Assembly: GCA_020722005.1 (NCBI GenBank)
Contig: DYLP01000002.1
Span: forward strand, 1 to 64,000
Reading direction: 5' to 3'
DNA length: 64,000 nt
From: Melioribacter roseus
GTDB lineage: Bacteria; Bacteroidota; Ignavibacteria; Ignavibacteriales; Melioribacteraceae
In this document: one piece after another, positions 253 to 15,036 of the stretch
How positions within the stretch are numbered: the stretch's first letter is position 1
Layout of the letters: each line of letters opens with the position of its first letter
The notes under the pieces: generated by a model
Seen by the model: the letters and a program-made list of their open reading frames with translations, nothing else
Told to the model about the DNA's origin: nothing
Databases searched by the model: none
Made by a program: the position numbers and the translations under genes

Positions 253-611
253 TGGTGGAGGTGCGGGGAGTCGAACCCCGGTCCGAAGCTACGTTTCAGT
301 GAACGTCTACACACATAGTCTGTTTAAGTTTTGTCTCGTTTCGATCGGATTAACAGACAAATCCTCTCGAAACCAGTCCGTTAAAAATTCGCCTTGCCTG
401 CACGGACACTCGACTTGGCTATCGCACCTGAGCGACGTTCTTTCAAATCCCGGTGCGAGAGAACTTGAAGAACGGCTACCATATTTTAATTAGGCAGCTA
501 AAGCGTAATTATATTCGCCATTTACTTTTTTTACCGTCGTTTTACGTGTCTACGGTAACACGGTGTGCAGTTCAAAGAACCTATAGCTCCGTCGAAGCCA
601 ATATCACCCCC
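253..611 (-). ncRNA. ssrA: tmRNA (transfer-messenger RNA)
   Basis: On the minus strand the RNA begins GGGGGUGAUAUUGGCUUCGA, the classic tmRNA 5' end. It ends with a T-arm containing GGUUCGACUCCCCGCACC and an encoded terminal CCA. The first seven bases (GGGGGUG) pair with CACCUCC next to ACCA to form the acceptor stem, which fixes both ends at about 359 nt. An internal tag reading frame ends in YALAA followed by stop. With SmpB it rescues stalled ribosomes and tags the unfinished protein for proteolysis. The 5' end lies only 5 bases after the stop codon of the upstream adenosyltransferase gene, so its promoter or processing site must lie inside or before that gene. Confidence 0.95.
490..525 (-). 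other. tmRNA proteolysis-tag reading frame
   Basis: Within the tmRNA, after an A-rich stretch, the codons GTA AAT GGC GAA TAT AAT TAC GCT TTA GCT GCC TAA encode VNGEYNYALAA and stop. The YALAA end is the usual ClpXP-type degron. The resume codon is probably GTA by alignment with other tags (ANDENYALAA in E. coli), although AAT cannot be excluded. The tRNA-borne alanine would precede it. Confidence 0.85.
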
Positions 612-6971: not shown

Positions 6972-9182
6972 TTATTTAGTGGTCAGCTCAAAAATTCCAT
7001 CCCAATCTGCAGGTGGTGGATTGGTAATATAAAATTCGCAACGTTCTGCATAAACTCGTGATGGATAATCTTTCAGTTCATCAAACGTTCGTCTGAAGTA
7101 ATCACAAGCAGCTTCAAAATTGCGCATTTTATATAAGCTTAGACCCTGGAAATAAAAATCGAGTTTTTCCAGTGCTTCCTTTGCAGCAACGTCATCTTTT
7201 GTACTGATCAGTTCATAAATTTTAGTTGGTACCATTTTACCTTTTACTCTGATTAGGTCGAGTTCCCTTGCAAGGAAATGTTCTTTAATCAATTCATAAG
7301 TCGAGGCGCTTATCATAATATTAGTGCCGTAGGCTTTATTGGCGCTTTCAAGTCTCGACGCCAGATTGACGTTATCGCCCAGCACAGTGTAATCGAACCT
7401 CTTCACGCCTCCAATATTGCCCACAATTGCTTCGCCTGTATTGATGCCAATTCTAATATAAATTGGTGTTTCTCCAGCAGCCATCCAATTCTCTCTGAGT
7501 TCAACGAGACGTTTTTGCATTTTTAAAGCGGCATGACAAGCCAGCAGAGCATGCTCTTTTATTTCAATCGGGGCTCCCCAGAAAGCCATGATTGCATCAC
7601 CTAAATACTTGTCGACAGTACCCTTATGTTCAATGATAATTTCACTCATTTCATTAAGGAATTCATTAATGTATCCAACCAGCTCTTCGGGCTTCCTTTT
7701 TTCGGAGAACGACGTAAAATTGGCAATATCACTAAACATTATCGTAATTTCTTTCCTTTCACCACCAAGTCTCAATTTCGATGGATTCTTTAACAACTCC
7801 GTTACAATCTCCTTGCTTACATACTGGCTGAACATATTTTTTATAACAAGATTTTGCTTACGCTCGCTAATAAAATTATACGCTGTCGACGTAAAATAAG
7901 ACAATACCACCGCAAGCGAGTAATTTACTACCGGCACAACAAGATGATAATCGATAAACAAAATAACGGCGCCCCTGTAGATTAAGTATATGCAACAGAC
8001 AATCGCTGTAATATTTAATACTTCTATGACAATACTATTTTTCAGTTTGATATTTCTTACAGCATTGGTAAGAATAAAAGTAAGAAAAGAAAGAATTGTG
8101 GTAAGAATGAAAATTATAGAAGATGACTGTTTGTATAAAAAATCTTTCCATAAAATATTTTGAATTACATTTGCATGGAATTCGATACCATAGAGGATGT
8201 TACTTCCTGTCTTGCCTTCCGAAAATGCAACCGGCAGCAGGTCCCTATCTTCTGGCATGGTCGAGCCAATAATTACGATTTTATCTTTGAATATTCCTGA
8301 ATGAAGCAATCCGATATCCGGGTCGTCCCATGTATTAATTTCCATGCCGAGCAACTGTTCATCTGATGTTTCATAATCCTTATCATCAAGCACATCAATT
8401 AAATTAACTCTTTTGAAAGTTGCATCACCTCCGTAAAAATTGATAAGCATACTTTCATTGTCCCATTTAGGAATTCTGACATCGTTCAGAATAAAATAAT
8501 CGGCATTATCTTTAACCAGATAATTGTTTTTCAGACTTTTGAACTTGTTGATAATAGCAAAGCTGAAACTGGGAAAAGACTTTCCAATTACGGCAGAACG
8601 AACGTAAGGAAAGTACCTGCGATAAATACCATCGTTATCGGACGGCACCTGTACAATTCCGCTCGAACTATCAACACTAAAGAATATATTGTCTAAGTTG
8701 TAATTTGTACTGGAGATAAAACTTTTTCCCGCCTGCAATTTGCTTTCGTTCGATATGTCGATTTTTCCGGCTAGCACAACTTTTCCTGAACGCCTGATCG
8801 ATAAAGACATTAGCGAGTCGTTCTTCGACGAATATGAATCCGCATTAGAAAAATTGATATCGATACCGATTGCTTTTACGCCTGCTTGAGAGAGATTATC
8901 GATGACATGCGAAAAAATGGATCGTGGCCAGGGCCATCTCCTTTGACTTTCCGGTACCTGGTCGTAAGTATTTTGATTTATTTCAAGAAGAATTACATCC
9001 GAACTATCTTTGATATCGAGAGCACCTCTTTCTTGGAATCGTTTATCGATAAGGCGCAGTTCAAGATCCTTCAAAGGTGAAATTTGAAATGGCGACACAT
9101 TCGTAATCAAAAAGGATAAAATTGCAGAAAGAAATACAATTATAATCCCGCTTAATAAATCTTTCTCTTTTTTTATTTCCAT
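6972..9182 (-). CDS. CHASE2-domain class III adenylate/guanylate cyclase
   Basis: A membrane receptor cyclase of 736 residues. It has one N-terminal membrane helix (about 10-30) and a large extracytoplasmic CHASE2 sensor (about 35-345, with VKAIGIDINFS and IVIIGSTMPED). Three closely spaced helices follow (about 350-440), then a cytosolic class III catalytic domain (about 475-650). Both metal Asp residues are present (MFSDIANFT and YLGDAIMAF), as are the base-recognising Lys (VDKYLGD), DYTVLGD, and the transition-state Asn and Arg (NLASRLE). The Lys with DYT looks more like an adenylate than a guanylate cyclase. A short TPR-like tail follows (about 670-725). It is the last gene of a four-gene unit and directly abuts the outer-membrane protein gene. 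Confidence 0.92.
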   Translation of the reverse strand: MEIKKEKDLLSGIIIVFLSAILSFLITNVSPFQISPLKDLELRLIDKRFQERGALDIKDSSDVILLEINQNTYDQVPESQRRWPWPRSIFSHVIDNLSQAGVKAIGIDINFSNADSYSSKNDSLMSLSIRRSGKVVLAGKIDISNESKLQAGKSFISSTNYNLDNIFFSVDSSSGIVQVPSDNDGIYRRYFPYVRSAVIGKSFPSFSFAIINKFKSLKNNYLVKDNADYFILNDVRIPKWDNESMLINFYGGDATFKRVNLIDVLDDKDYETSDEQLLGMEINTWDDPDIGLLHSGIFKDKIVIIGSTMPEDRDLLPVAFSEGKTGSNILYGIEFHANVIQNILWKDFLYKQSSSIIFILTTILSFLTFILTNAVRNIKLKNSIVIEVLNITAIVCCIYLIYRGAVILFIDYHLVVPVVNYSLAVVLSYFTSTAYNFISERKQNLVIKNMFSQYVSKEIVTELLKNPSKLRLGGERKEITIMFSDIANFTSFSEKRKPEELVGYINEFLNEMSEIIIEHKGTVDKYLGDAIMAFWGAPIEIKEHALLACHAALKMQKRLVELRENWMAAGETPIYIRIGINTGEAIVGNIGGVKRFDYTVLGDNVNLASRLESANKAYGTNIMISASTYELIKEHFLARELDLIRVKGKMVPTKIYELISTKDDVAAKEALEKLDFYFQGLSLYKMRNFEAACDYFRRTFDELKDYPSRVYAERCEFYITNPPPADWDGIFELTTK

Positions 9183-11555
9183 TTAGAAATTCAATCTTGC
9201 ATATAATCCAGCAATTGAATTAGTATATTTCCCCGGATAATGGAAAAATCGCGCCTGTAAGCCAAGGAAAAGATTAGCAATCAAATTATAATCTGCCAGA
9301 AGTTCCACATAATGTCTTTTATAATCCCCGAAACTTGGATTGTAAGAAAATGTAATTTGCAATCGATCTTCTATCATTTTATAATTTACACGCCCGAGTA
9401 ACGAAACGTAATCGTAAGAAGTACTTTGCAGTTCTGTCGAGTTAAATAGTACTTGTATCATTGAAGTTAAATTACGGTTCCAGAAACTGTTGACCGAAAG
9501 AGAAATTGAATTATAAGTAAGATCATTATTAAACAACGTTTCATCTTCCCTCTTTTGATTTACAAGAGTAAAAGAAACCGAGTTGCGAACATACCAATTA
9601 AAATTATACGACACACCAAGTGAAATTCTGTTCGTCCTGTCTTTAATCATATAATTGTTGTAGAGAGTATCGTAAATATCGATGCCGTTATTTTTTTTGT
9701 AGACGCTATACGATAAAGTAATTTTCGGAAAATTAATCCTTGGGAAATACGATATCGAAGATGAAATATTATCAAAATTTGTGGTGGCAATTTTTGTATT
9801 CTGTAGATTGTCCTCCAGTTTTTCGAGCCCAAAGGAAATAAACAATTGATTATCCAGGAGACGGAGACGGTCGCTTATATTAAATCCTTTTATATCTGTC
9901 CTTAAATAATTCTGTCCAAACGATTGGAAATCGTTGCCACGATAAATATAGGCGGCTTTCAAAGTATTGTAAAAATAATTTATGTTTAAGTTGGTTTCAG
10001 CCGCAAACGAAGCTAATTCTTGAGGGTTAAGAGGACCCAGGTATTCGTTAACCGTTATAAAATTTCCGAGTAAATCGCGTATAGTTCTTATTTGATCGGG
10101 ATCGATATCGATTGATTTCCCTTCTCCAAATACCGAATCAATTCTGGCATCGTCAATTTCTCCTGCCGAAATATCATTATTATTCATACTGAATGCTGCC
10201 TGGGAATTGAAGACTATATTTTTGTTATCGAGATCAAACGTCAGATCTGTGCCAAAGACTGCATTTTCTTTTGGCCTTGCTCCAAACTCAATCGAACCCG
10301 GATCGTCTTTGCCGTGCAAATAAGAAAAACCCAGTTGAAAATTCTCGCCACTGCCAAATGATGGTCTGAGTGAAAATATTTCTCTTTTGTAAGTTCCCAG
10401 TTCCACTTTGCCATATGGATTGCCATACTTGAGTTCGTCTATCAGAATTATATTAGAGCCTAAAGGAGCATTTTCCTTTTGATATGTTTCAATTAGTTTA
10501 CCTTCAATGCCACGCGAAATTTCACCAAACGAGCTTTGTATATTGAAAAAACCCAATTTAATTTCGCCGCTCATTCCACGCACTCTCTTGCCGTTTAATA
10601 TTAGCGATGGAAATCTGGGATACGTGTCGCCCAAATGAAATTCAAAGACATCGCCCGCAGCTATTTTAAGCAGATAACGATTGTAAGGTTGTAGATAACT
10701 TTTTTCTTCCGAAGTTACATAAAGCTGTCCGTCTATACTCAAGAAACTGTATGACGCATTTAAAGTTGCGTTAATATTGGAATACTGTGTGCTCGATTCG
10801 CTCACGTTTTCAGTTCTCGTTTCGGCTCGTATATTTCCTCTGAATTTAAATTGATTTTCCAGTTGCTCCATTCTCGCTGTTGAAACTACCTGAACTGAGC
10901 GAGATAATGTATGATAAATGTTACCATCTTTGTTGTATACTTCAACTTTCAGAACATAATTACCTGGTTCTATTTTTATATTTGACGAGCTCAAAATAAT
11001 AAGCTCCCCGGCAATAAGTGATTTAGAACTGACGTCCTCATTATTTAATAATATCCTGGTCCTCTTTATATCAACTGTCTCAGGAGCTTTTATGAAAGAT
11101 AAACTTAGCAGAAAATTATCTGGAGTTAATTTTTCTGCAGGCGCGGGACTTAGAATTAAAATCTCTTTGTCTTTTTCAGATGGCGCTTGAACTGCTATTT
11201 GAATGGGAGGGGTGCCATTAAGTACTCCCTCCGGATAAGTCTCAGTAGAACCGTCTTTCAGATATATAACAATATAATATTCGATGTATGGGCTTTGTAC
11301 AGATTCGCCGACAATATTGGCAGATGCAGTATTACCCTTCATCTCCATCTCTTTAATGCTATATTCATCTTTACCGAACTGTCTGAAAGCAATTTCCATA
11401 GAGGAAATATTTTCAATTGATGTAAGAGTAGCAGTAATATTTAAAGGTGAATTTTCGATAGCTTTACTGACCTGCACATCTAAGATATAATTACTGACCT
11501 GAGCATAAATCAAGCTCGCCAATAAACACAAAGCAATGATATATTTTTTACACAT
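9183..11555 (-). CDS. Outer-membrane beta-barrel protein with Ig-like N-terminal region
   Basis: The 790-residue protein has a signal peptide (MCKKYIIALCLLASLIYA). About 230 residues of Ig/cadherin-like beta strands follow (for example TPDNFLLSLSF and IEPGNYVLKVEVYNKDG), then a long series of alternating amphipathic strands typical of an outer-membrane barrel, ending in a terminal Phe (ARLNF). The start was set at the internal ATG because AAGG sits 7-8 bases upstream and it is followed at once by the signal peptide; the longer frame would intrude 53 bases into the FecR gene. I recognise no named family. Its position between a FecR protein and a cyclase suggests a surface part of a sensing system, but that is inference. 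Confidence 0.75.
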   Translation of the reverse strand: MCKKYIIALCLLASLIYAQVSNYILDVQVSKAIENSPLNITATLTSIENISSMEIAFRQFGKDEYSIKEMEMKGNTASANIVGESVQSPYIEYYIVIYLKDGSTETYPEGVLNGTPPIQIAVQAPSEKDKEILILSPAPAEKLTPDNFLLSLSFIKAPETVDIKRTRILLNNEDVSSKSLIAGELIILSSSNIKIEPGNYVLKVEVYNKDGNIYHTLSRSVQVVSTARMEQLENQFKFRGNIRAETRTENVSESSTQYSNINATLNASYSFLSIDGQLYVTSEEKSYLQPYNRYLLKIAAGDVFEFHLGDTYPRFPSLILNGKRVRGMSGEIKLGFFNIQSSFGEISRGIEGKLIETYQKENAPLGSNIILIDELKYGNPYGKVELGTYKREIFSLRPSFGSGENFQLGFSYLHGKDDPGSIEFGARPKENAVFGTDLTFDLDNKNIVFNSQAAFSMNNNDISAGEIDDARIDSVFGEGKSIDIDPDQIRTIRDLLGNFITVNEYLGPLNPQELASFAAETNLNINYFYNTLKAAYIYRGNDFQSFGQNYLRTDIKGFNISDRLRLLDNQLFISFGLEKLEDNLQNTKIATTNFDNISSSISYFPRINFPKITLSYSVYKKNNGIDIYDTLYNNYMIKDRTNRISLGVSYNFNWYVRNSVSFTLVNQKREDETLFNNDLTYNSISLSVNSFWNRNLTSMIQVLFNSTELQSTSYDYVSLLGRVNYKMIEDRLQITFSYNPSFGDYKRHYVELLADYNLIANLFLGLQARFFHYPGKYTNSIAGLYARLNF

Positions 11556-11577
11556 AAATATACCTTGTAATAAATTT

Positions 11578-12297
11578 TTATTCTTCCGGAGCATAATACT
11601 CAATCTCAATTGTACCTTCTTCAGTTTCAATATAAATTTTCTTTAACGTTGCTTGTTTGGACATATTGATTTTATTCAGGTCTTCTTGATTTTGATTGCG
11701 GAATTGGAAATTGCCATCCGATGTAATAACAACCGTATTCCCTTCATTCAATTGTCCGGTACCACCCTGAGGACCTCGAAAAGACAGGTCTGCCATTCCA
11801 GATTCTAAAGACATGGTAAAAGTGCTGTCCTCGTCGAATTCGAGGAATCCATTCGTGCCTCGTATAGATGCAACGACCGTAGGAGTAGTAAAACGAAATT
11901 CTTCTCCCTCGGCTTGCTTATTTACGTCGAAGCCGATCATCCCTCTTTGAATAAAAGCATCCTTGTTTAATTTACGCCCTTCCGATGTTCCGTAAATATG
12001 GAGTATTGAATTTTCTCGCACTCGTAGGATTCCCGAACCGTCTTTGAATAGAACAACAGCCAGGGACTTCGTACCTGTTCTCAGTTCGTTTCCGTCTGAA
12101 AGGGGCAAACCAATTTTTGCTTCCTGCCAATCAGATTCTTTTTCGGTCAAGCGAAATGTTACGTTATTAAATACTTTTTTAATTAGAGCAATAATTTCCT
12201 TTGTGTCGTCGGCAGGCTTCCGAAGATTGTCTACTTCTCCACTCTTAAATCCAAGGAGAAGCGGAACAATTAATAAAATAAAAACTTTCCTCTTCAT
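11578..12297 (-). CDS. FecR-domain periplasmic protein
   Basis: A 239-residue protein with an N-terminal signal sequence (about 1-18) and a FecR domain (about 40-180). The hallmark pieces are VGLPLSDGNELRTGTKSLAVVLFKDGS-type strands, RVRENSILHI, and the TPTVVASIRGTNGF block. Classical FecR proteins relay outer-membrane receptor signals to sigma regulators, but many stand-alone periplasmic FecR proteins have no sigma partner and none is encoded nearby. The start was moved to the ATG at 12297, because AGGTGA (overlapping the upstream TGA stop) is well spaced for it; a GTG lies three codons earlier. Coupling to the Fn3-like gene is likely. Confidence 0.85.
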   Translation of the reverse strand: MKRKVFILLIVPLLLGFKSGEVDNLRKPADDTKEIIALIKKVFNNVTFRLTEKESDWQEAKIGLPLSDGNELRTGTKSLAVVLFKDGSGILRVRENSILHIYGTSEGRKLNKDAFIQRGMIGFDVNKQAEGEEFRFTTPTVVASIRGTNGFLEFDEDSTFTMSLESGMADLSFRGPQGGTGQLNEGNTVVITSDGNFQFRNQNQEDLNKINMSKQATLKKIYIETEEGTIEIEYYAPEE

Positions 12298-12302
12298 TGC
12301 AT

Positions 12303-13355
12303 TCACCTGTTATTAAACTCTACTGAAATTATAGATCGTTCATTTTGATCAAGATAATCGAGAATAGCATTCAAATCGCTGAAGTCAAGTTGAGTTCCCT
12401 CGCTGTCGAAAATCTTAACCTTTTCGGGACTAATCTCGCCGTTGAGAAGTTTATTTACTAATTCCGGGCTTATCTTGTTCTGAAGAAAATTTGCCAATCG
12501 CAAGATTACTGGATTGACCACACGCATACTTTCAGTTTCGCCGCCAGCTGTAGAAGAAGTTCTAAAAACTCTCGGTTTACTTCTCAAAAATAAAACTTCA
12601 CCAGCTCCTTCAATCTTTGCAGCTACCGAAACGACCACATTAGTATCCGGAAGAACTTCCCTTCCCAGGTAATTAGTAAGATTTATTTGTGTAGTATTTG
12701 CGTCGACTTCAAGATTATCCACCAGTGGATTACCCGAATTAAGAGCGTCTTCGGCGGAAGATTCATCATTCTTATAATTAGCCTTAACTATGTAACTACT
12801 TGCGCCGATTGATTTGTCCCATGTTATTATTATGTTTCCAACATCGACTTCCTCGGATTCGAGAGGCGAGGTGATTTCAGGTGCAGTGGTATTAAGAAAT
12901 GTAAAAGTTCTTTCCTCTTCATCCTGAGCACCTGAATTTATGTCCTGTACTTTCAAAACTACCCTGAAAATACCTCTTGGTTTTCCAATATTGACAATAT
13001 CGGAAATAATATTAGAATTCAGTTCGGATTCTTTATAAATTAAATCGCCATTATCCAGTTCGTCGTTATAAAAACTTCTGGATAAAAAAGGATTTGTTTT
13101 GAAGTATACAACCCGTACAAAGCTGGAATTCTCGTCTTTTTTCCATTCAACAAATCCTTCAACAATTACTTCAACATTTTCGGGGAAGATTGATACTCTC
13201 ATAATACGAGGTTGATTAGCGATATTTTTATCTTGCATGAATGCCGCGAGGTCTATCGTGCTGAGGTCTTGAAAAATATCCAGTTGAATTGAAATCCCTT
13301 GCTGTGCATTTAAACTTGTAAGTAGCAGAAAAACCAAAAGGGTGATTCTTTTCAT
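12303..13355 (-). CDS. Secreted Fn3-like protein of unknown function
   Basis: A 350-residue protein with a clean signal peptide (MKRITLLVFLLLTSLNAQ). The first half is a predicted beta domain with no recognised relatives. The middle (about 160-270) resembles a fibronectin type III/Ig fold: APEITSPLESEEVDVGN followed by ITWDKSIGASSYIVKANY. The C-terminus (about 285-350) is helical. It is probably periplasmic or attached to the outer-membrane partner. GGAG lies 7 bases before the ATG. It is the first gene of the FecR/outer-membrane/cyclase unit, so it may be a ligand-contacting or scaffold part of that unit; this is inference. Confidence 0.7.
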   Translation of the reverse strand: MKRITLLVFLLLTSLNAQQGISIQLDIFQDLSTIDLAAFMQDKNIANQPRIMRVSIFPENVEVIVEGFVEWKKDENSSFVRVVYFKTNPFLSRSFYNDELDNGDLIYKESELNSNIISDIVNIGKPRGIFRVVLKVQDINSGAQDEEERTFTFLNTTAPEITSPLESEEVDVGNIIITWDKSIGASSYIVKANYKNDESSAEDALNSGNPLVDNLEVDANTTQINLTNYLGREVLPDTNVVVSVAAKIEGAGEVLFLRSKPRVFRTSSTAGGETESMRVVNPVILRLANFLQNKISPELVNKLLNGEISPEKVKIFDSEGTQLDFSDLNAILDYLDQNERSIISVEFNNR

Positions 13356-13461: not shown

Positions 13462-13785
13462 TTAATTTATTTTGTTTTCCTTATCGGGATTTATAAAACC
13501 GTATTGAGGCGAAGAGTGAGCGTCGATTCGTATTTCACCAAAGCGTGCTTCAAATTTTTCGATATTGTCTTTGAGAGCACGCATCAGCATTTTTGCATGC
13601 TGTGGTGTTGTAATAATTCTGGCAAGAACTTTTGCTTTCGGTACACCTGGCACCACTCTGGTAAAGTCGATAACAAATTCGGCGGGAGAATGTGTTATTA
13701 TTGCAAGGTTCGAATAGATGCCTTCGGCTTCTTTTTCACCCAATTCAATGTTTATTTGTTGAGCTTTTATTTCGTTCTGTTCCAT
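13462..13785 (-). CDS. DUF3467-family protein
   Basis: A 107-residue acidic, soluble protein whose pattern matches DUF3467: YSNLAIITHSPAEFVIDFTRVVPGVPKAKVLARI in overlapping pieces, then TTPQHAKMLMRALKDNIEKFE. The family is common in bacteria and has no assigned function. There is no signal peptide or membrane segment, so it is cytosolic. It lies downstream of the TPR gene, separated from it by a strong terminator-like hairpin, and upstream of the Fn3-like gene. Confidence 0.8.
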   Translation of the reverse strand: MEQNEIKAQQINIELGEKEAEGIYSNLAIITHSPAEFVIDFTRVVPGVPKAKVLARIITTPQHAKMLMRALKDNIEKFEARFGEIRIDAHSSPQYGFINPDKENKIN

Positions 13786-13824
13786 TGCCGCTCCTGTTTT
13801 ATAGGGAAGTTTATATTGCGAGGG

Positions 13825-13853
13825 AAAAACCGGGGGAGAACCAATTCCCCCGG
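13825..13853 (-). terminator. Rho-independent terminator after the TPR gene
   Basis: Read on the minus strand, CCGGGGGA pairs perfectly with TCCCCCGG around an 8-base loop and is followed by five T residues. It lies 10 bases after the TPR stop codon and before the DUF3467 gene, so it would separate the two or allow partial read-through. Confidence 0.85.
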
Positions 13854-13863
13854 CTTTAAAGAA

Positions 13864-15036
13864 TTATTTTCTCAATTGATCCGCTTTATTGAATGCCTCT
13901 ACCGATTTTTCTTCGTTACCAAGATTAGCGTGAACTTTGCCCAATAGTTCCCATATAGCTGCTTCATTGGGATTTACTTCCAGATATTTTTCAAGATAAG
14001 GGATAGCAGCCTGGAATTTTTCTTTATACTTGGTTTCGTCTATTTTCACGTTTTCATTTTGCTCCATTTCCTCGCGTATCTGTGCACCCCAACGAATATA
14101 TGTAACAGCCAGGTTGTAAATGGCATTTGTGTACTGAGGGTCGAGTTCTATCGCCTTTTTGAAATGTTTTTCTGCGCCTTCAAAATCATTGGCATTCAAA
14201 AGCAGTACTCCTAAGTTGTACTGATAGAATTTATTTTCGGGATCTTTTTCAACGCCTTTTTTGAAGGCTTCGAGTGCTACGTCGAGCTTATTTGCCGAAA
14301 TATAGGCATTCGATAGTCTCAATAAAACTTCGTTGTCATCCGGGAACAAATCTCTTCCTTTTTCGAGTACAGAAATAGCCTTGTCAAAATATTCGTATGC
14401 TTTAACGCTATCCTGTTCATTTTTTGATTCGCGATAAGTATCGATTAATGTATTACCTTTTTCCGTATAGATTTGTCCTAGCATCGAAAAAGCTTCTGCA
14501 GAATTTCTAAGTGAAGTTAATTTTTCAAGTGGTTCAATTGCATCGTCAATTTTATTCATATTCAAATAAGTATACACAAGATTAATGTAGCCTACCGACG
14601 AATCTGGTTGACACAATATCGAGTTTTTAAATTGTCCTGCAGCCTGTTCGTAAAAGATTTGCACTGTATCCTTAGAGGCGGTATTGCTAGCTTTATTGAA
14701 TAAATTTACGCCTTTGTTGAAGCTCGTAGCCCAGTAATATTTTTTAGAATCTTCAATCTGACTCTTAAACTTATCACTGATGGATAAAGATTTATCGAAA
14801 GCATTTAACATTTCGGAAATGTTACCTTCTTCACCGTAAATATATCCAAGAAGATACCATCCTTCGTCACTATTTGGATTTTTGGCAATATCTTTCTGAA
14901 GTGCTTCTTTAGCCTTTTCATATTGTTTTTGATTAATATAAAGCTTTGCACCTGTTAATTCTGCCGAAGCACACTGAAATGCCGTGATCCCCAAAGCCAT
15001 ACCCAAAATACTTAAAAATATAAGCGCTTTTTTCAT
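13864..15036 (-). CDS. Secreted tetratricopeptide-repeat protein
   Basis: A 390-residue protein with a signal sequence (about 1-25). The Cys near the end of the hydrophobic segment (FQCASA) lacks a proper lipobox, so cleavage by signal peptidase I after ASA is more likely than lipidation. The rest is made of TPR units: NSDEGWYLLGYIYGEEGN near 55, then several at about 150-200, 235-330 (FYQYNLGVLLLNANDFEGAE, YTNAIYNLAVTYIRWG) and 345-390. TPR arrays scaffold protein complexes; the partner is unknown. It has its own promoter candidate upstream and a strong terminator downstream. Confidence 0.85.
   Translation of the reverse strand: MKKALIFLSILGMALGITAFQCASAELTGAKLYINQKQYEKAKEALQKDIAKNPNSDEGWYLLGYIYGEEGNISEMLNAFDKSLSISDKFKSQIEDSKKYYWATSFNKGVNLFNKASNTASKDTVQIFYEQAAGQFKNSILCQPDSSVGYINLVYTYLNMNKIDDAIEPLEKLTSLRNSAEAFSMLGQIYTEKGNTLIDTYRESKNEQDSVKAYEYFDKAISVLEKGRDLFPDDNEVLLRLSNAYISANKLDVALEAFKKGVEKDPENKFYQYNLGVLLLNANDFEGAEKHFKKAIELDPQYTNAIYNLAVTYIRWGAQIREEMEQNENVKIDETKYKEKFQAAIPYLEKYLEVNPNEAAIWELLGKVHANLGNEEKSVEAFNKADQLRK

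Follow-up and report, generated by a model that had tools for sequence, protein, structure and literature searches.

The closest known system to the locus described here is NsrA-CyaK (with CyaD1/CyaD2) of Sinorhizobium meliloti. NsrA is a single 1200-aa polypeptide in which a FecR domain is followed by TPRs and then by a barrel part (PMC7529298), and CyaK consists of a CHASE2 domain and a cyclase. The gene nsrA lies directly upstream of cyaK and overlaps it by 1 base. Both proteins are needed for the cAMP response to an outside protein signal, and it was shown genetically that a signal at the outer membrane is turned into cAMP at the inner membrane (PMC7529298, PMC13001267); the route from NsrA to CyaK across the periplasm is not settled in these papers. 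In Campylobacterota a CHASE2 adenylate cyclase is clustered with genes for a phosphodiesterase, a FecR outer-membrane protein and a TPR protein, which the authors inferred to form one pathway; the available portion of that report mentions neither an Fn3-like gene nor a separate FecR gene (PMC9239204). In the BiofilmReg operon of Burkholderia and a related operon of P. aeruginosa, FecR stands next to CHASE2 and the output is a histidine kinase; the signal sensed by CHASE2 domains is stated there to be unknown (PMC5192318).

The window (the whole analysed stretch of 64,000 nucleotides from Melioribacter roseus) contains a cassette of four genes, which the earlier note had described as co-directional and almost gapless. 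The open reading frames bear this out:

12303-13355, minus strand: Fn3-like gene, 350 aa, first gene of the cassette (open reading frame list)
11578-12306, minus strand: FecR gene, 242 aa from a GTG start (open reading frame list, Pfam FecR)
9183-11555, minus strand: barrel gene, 790 aa from an ATG (open reading frame list, AlphaFold2)
6972-9182, minus strand: CHASE2-cyclase gene, 736 aa (open reading frame list, Pfam)

The order on the minus strand is thus Fn3-like, FecR, barrel and CHASE2-cyclase. With its GTG start the FecR gene overlaps the Fn3-like gene by 4 bases, and with an internal ATG instead a gap of ~5 bases results; the spacing between FecR and barrel is 22 bases, and that between barrel and cyclase is 0 bases. 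Just upstream of the cassette (13462-15036, minus strand) lie two genes, one for a DUF3467 protein and one for a TPR protein with a lipoprotein-like signal sequence. Many loci of the family to which the window belongs keep this pair upstream of the cassette, and loci elsewhere do not; the TPR protein may supplement the cassette with a periplasmic TPR part, reminiscent of the one in NsrA. At 253-611 (minus strand) the window also carries a tmRNA gene with the tag peptide GEYNYALAA.

The last gene product is matched by the Pfam families CHASE2 (E 2.6e-45) and Guanylate_cyc (E 1.9e-32). A transmembrane span at residues 9-27 precedes the predicted periplasmic CHASE2 domain, which extends to ~353 and is followed by three spans at 354-423, and this topology (one span before and three after, by Pfam and hydropathy) fits the receptor pattern. 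A class III cyclase domain (477-650) and a TPR-like tail come after these. The earlier claim that all catalytic residues are present holds: D485, K525, D529, T599, N606 and R610 are invariant in 19 of 19 cyclase orthologues and make up a complete set of two metal-binding aspartates, the lysine and threonine for adenine, and the asparagine-arginine transition-state pair. In class III cyclases, lysine and threonine at the purine-selecting positions go with ATP as substrate and cAMP as product. Since Lys525 and Thr599 occupy these positions, the sequence points to an adenylate cyclase converting ATP to cAMP. The protein is the sole Guanylate_cyc match in the window's genome (99% complete) and aligns with CyaK over almost the whole length (E 1.6e-69); in a tblastn search of plasmids, the CHASE2 part alone was too divergent.

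The second gene product is a predicted Sec-exported protein with a single FecR domain (Pfam E 9.3e-9, residues 74-170), preceded only by a signal peptide and a short linker. It is the sole FecR match in the same genome, and hhalign aligns it with the FecR part of NsrA (E 1e-8). Pfam found no TPR in it, and its profile gave no meaningful relative among the PDB sequences. Of the NCBIfam models, it scores with those for Lsa33 (E 9.6e-11) and LipL45 (E 1e-8), two surface proteins of Leptospira, in both cases far below the model cut-off, which suggests that these proteins share the FecR domain.

For the barrel protein, the AlphaFold2 model contains a signal peptide, an Ig-like front (~24-223) and a barrel part (237-790) with ~26-28 strands. 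The model was built on an alignment of 19 sequences and has a pLDDT of 86.3 and a moderate pTM of 0.63; the predicted fold agrees with the Ig-like front proposed earlier. As the earlier note had supposed, neither the barrel nor the Fn3-like protein has a Pfam or NCBIfam match. The barrel protein contains no TPR. A PDB search with the barrel profile yielded no meaningful relative, only weak matches to a region of a peptidylarginine deiminase.

The AlphaFold2 model of the Fn3-like protein (pLDDT 78.5) predicts two tandem Fn3-type sandwiches followed by C-terminal helices, which form a small conserved domain, and the Foldseek matches of this model are tandem Fn3 structures (E 3e-6). The protein is predicted to be Sec-exported, with an N-terminal signal peptide and no other hydrophobic span by hydropathy; the signal sequence of the window's own protein lies below the hydropathy cut-off and those of most relatives lie above it. 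This family is the fastest evolving of the cassette: its median identity is 30%, that of the cyclase 47%, and its profile no longer detects distant members. In one further locus (L087, 12579-13673) a second member of the family follows the barrel at the contig end; in that genome the cyclase is on a different contig from the barrel.

Close orthologues of the cyclase were found in 18 other genomes from two families, and in 18 of 18 the Fn3-like, FecR, barrel and cyclase genes have the same order and strand. The flanking genes differ around the intact cassette at L034, L039 and L041-L045, so that the conserved thing is the cassette and not the region. When named genomes were scanned with the barrel profile, 77 loci were obtained; 54 have a complete cassette, and most of the others stop at a contig end. 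By title nearly all of them are Ignavibacteria-like (Melioribacter, Stygiobacter, Ignavibacteriales and others), some being named only as Bacteroidetes or Chlorobiota bacterium. Both searches confirm the conserved adjacency that the earlier note had named as a check.

Within the class, 63 of 149 genomes have the barrel and every one of these 63 has the cyclase; a barrel without the cyclase was not encountered among the 149. Only two genomes of this set have a cyclase and lack the barrel, and theirs is a different, weaker-scoring cyclase type. FecR is present in 62 of the 63 barrel genomes; in the exception, 453 bases separate the barrel start from a contig end. By coordinates, barrel and cyclase are adjacent in 60 of the 63; in the other 3 the cyclase is relocated yet intact, beside unrelated genes. 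As these genomes share ancestry, per-genome counts make the cases look more independent than they are; counted by genus, the barrel is present in 40 of 88. The cassette is a real, widespread and sharply conserved unit, the pieces of which are separate and yet almost always inherited together.

The cassette resembles NsrA-CyaK in that a FecR domain and a barrel are encoded just before a class III cyclase with CHASE2, and both the FecR region and the cyclase are homologous. Unlike in S. meliloti, FecR and barrel are separate genes, with the barrel gene standing between those for FecR and cyclase; the barrel carries an Ig-like front and aligns too poorly with the NsrA barrel for homology to be detected (hhalign E 0.54), the unit lacks periplasmic TPRs, and it has an additional Fn3-like protein. 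As the barrels are not detectably homologous, this part of the analogy is one of position and predicted shape only. Assessed as a member of the NsrA family itself, the cassette was rejected, having neither a single-polypeptide receptor nor a homologous barrel. It would rather be a split variant of the same kind of trans-envelope cAMP receptor: the homologies to NsrA and CyaK together with the recurring pairing of FecR with CHASE2 suggest that it works like NsrA-CyaK. With the Campylobacterota clusters it has in common the CHASE2 cyclase beside a FecR-domain outer-membrane protein, as far as the available portion of that report describes them (PMC9239204), and with the BiofilmReg operon a FecR-domain periplasmic protein adjoining a CHASE2 receptor (PMC5192318); in the latter, unlike in the cassette, FecR is joined to LysM, the output is a histidine kinase and a barrel gene is absent.

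The earlier note was right that FecR-CHASE2-cyclase neighbourhoods occur in other bacteria, as seen in Sinorhizobium (PMC7529298, PMC13001267) and in the described part of the Campylobacterota clusters (PMC9239204). Its statement that no characterised mechanism was known has to be corrected, NsrA-CyaK being a genetically backed precedent (PMC7529298, PMC13001267). This experimentally studied relative makes it plausible, by analogy, that an outer-membrane signal reaches the CHASE2 cyclase, as the note had proposed. The novelty of the FecR/outer-membrane/CHASE2-cyclase grouping is weakened, because such clusters are published for both groups. A literature search found nothing tying the cassette to Ignavibacteria; most subscription papers lay outside this search and the negative is therefore weak evidence of novelty.

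On balance we consider it probable that the four gene products together form a single cAMP-making receptor spanning the envelope, in which the FecR-TPR-barrel receptor of NsrA-CyaK would be split into separate proteins. The large outer-membrane barrel would receive or report a surface event, and its Ig-like periplasmic front, the soluble FecR protein and the Fn3-like protein would bridge the periplasm to CHASE2. Binding or release at CHASE2 may then alter how the class III catalytic domain dimerises, and with it the cAMP level. We infer that the four proteins bind one another, that the signal runs inwards, that FecR is the contact of CHASE2 and that the output passes through cAMP and CRP. If so, the cassette couples cAMP to sensing at the outer membrane in a large group of bacteria that has been little studied, and its separate proteins allow direct tests of the relay.

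Alternatively, the barrel, FecR and Fn3-like proteins could form a structural assembly, and the cyclase would sense the state of this assembly or the distance between membranes and not an outside ligand. Such a sensor of envelope integrity would agree with the conservation of the barrel, which is highest at residues ~281-440 and 501-600 and not in the front, with the FecR and Fn3-like domains, which are probably adhesive folds, and with the spread of the cassette in bacteria of very different habitats. However, NsrA-CyaK, the closest studied relative, answers an added protein signal (PMC7529298), and we regard the structural explanation as unlikely. Even less probable is that the barrel is an exporter or channel of the usher or MtrB kind with FecR and Fn3-like accessories, the cyclase controlling its expression or use and the signal running outwards. 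The best Foldseek matches of the barrel model are indeed the PapC/FimD usher and MtrB barrels, next to those of TonB receptors, and Pfam finds no TonB plug or STN domain on the protein, but the TM scores are low (0.3-0.4), so that these matches speak for a barrel shape and not for a particular family; moreover, genes for a chaperone, a pilin, a multihaem cytochrome or a secreted substrate are missing from the conserved cassette.

It is very improbable that the linkage reflects an old operon kept by vertical descent with no joint function. The distance matrices of the four protein families are correlated (r 0.64-0.82), as would be expected from vertical descent alone, but the flanks have been replaced around the intact cassette, the relocated cyclases are still retained, and the cassette genes are jointly absent from several lineages (G010, G051, G023, G025, G027 and G029) within otherwise carrying families. 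Chance adjacency of the four genes is rejected by the constant order (18 of 18), the complete loci (54 of 77) and the co-presence of barrel and cyclase (63 of 63).

Canonical FecA-FecR-FecI signalling, with the sigma factor encoded elsewhere and the cyclase an incidental neighbour, is hardly credible and was rejected: the cassette shares with it a periplasmic FecR domain and a large outer-membrane barrel, and an ECF-like sigma gene (by eye) is found elsewhere in the genome (L138, 2517-3086), but the barrel has no TonB plug or STN domain, the FecR protein has no cytoplasmic anti-sigma N-domain by Pfam and no transmembrane span beyond its signal peptide by hydropathy, no ECF sigma gene adjoins the cassette (by Pfam among the window's neighbours and by eye in the inspected homologous loci), and the linkage to the cyclase is near absolute. 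The earlier remark that the unit contains neither a sigma nor an anti-sigma gene is thus correct.

If the four proteins act as a cAMP-forming receptor, the product would most likely be read by a regulator encoded elsewhere. The window's genome has four cyclic-nucleotide-binding domains, of which only one belongs to a complete CRP-type regulator; it carries the canonical phosphate-binding cassette motif FGEMAILDGKTRSATV, and we take this protein as the probable reader of the cAMP. A search for CRP-like sites in the window showed no enrichment, the matches being below chance expectation. The second CHASE2 protein of the genome (L154, 992-3433, contig C52 of G000) is a fusion of CHASE2 with a sigma54 activator (Sigma54_activat E 5e-70), and CHASE2 reading frames of 813-830 aa, like this fusion, recur in many genomes of the class.

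In a phylum-wide search with CHASE2, complete cassettes were also found outside the class, in 6 genomes of one family (L185-L190, f37) and in 1 of another (L197, f26), with E-values of 1e-18 to 4e-51 for FecR, 1e-90 to 2e-113 for the barrel and 2e-176 to 4e-224 for the cyclase. The first gene at L185-L190 encodes a protein of ~400 aa, 245 columns of which align to the Fn3-like family (hhalign E 2.9e-4); as the hhalign probability is only 40%, membership in this family is likely and not proven.

We advance only tentatively the broader idea that FecR and CHASE2 form a general, sigma-independent periplasmic relay from outer-membrane barrels to several outputs (cAMP, histidine kinase), of which the cassette would be the most dissected natural form. 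On this view CHASE2 would usually be paired with FecR, which would be its missing input, and sensing by the barrel, relay by FecR, bridging by the Fn3-like protein and the cyclase reaction would each fall to a separate protein. FecR also adjoins a CHASE2 protein in Methylocystis, in a fused receptor arrangement as in NsrA, and in Shinella, where the arrangement is partly split. The CHASE2 cyclases at L192, L193 and L196 have no FecR neighbour, which means that CHASE2 does not always need FecR. Other CHASE2 cyclases of the phylum stand beside an SH3-type protein, or beside a TPR/beta-propeller protein together with a small protein that is possibly FecR-like, or have no such neighbour. The small protein beside the CHASE2 cyclase of Azospirillum B510 was considered as a FecR protein and not counted, the similarity being only weak.

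A second recurrent CHASE2-cyclase unit is present at L047 (11166-18642), L152 (1102-8580), L194 (3399-11133) and L195 (1664-9748). Besides the cyclase, it comprises a TPR/beta-propeller protein of ~1500-1670 aa and a small protein that has a TPR tail and is possibly FecR-like. The small proteins look FecR-like by eye, but Pfam finds TPR alone and the FecR profile scores are weak (3.5e-5 at L194), so that they are only possible FecR proteins. On a Shinella plasmid (L144, 2105-15257) a CHASE2 cyclase is found with a FecR protein having weak TbpB-like matches in its C-terminal part and with a TPR-barrel protein; NHLP bacteriocin export genes come next, together with a cyclic-nucleotide-binding gene.
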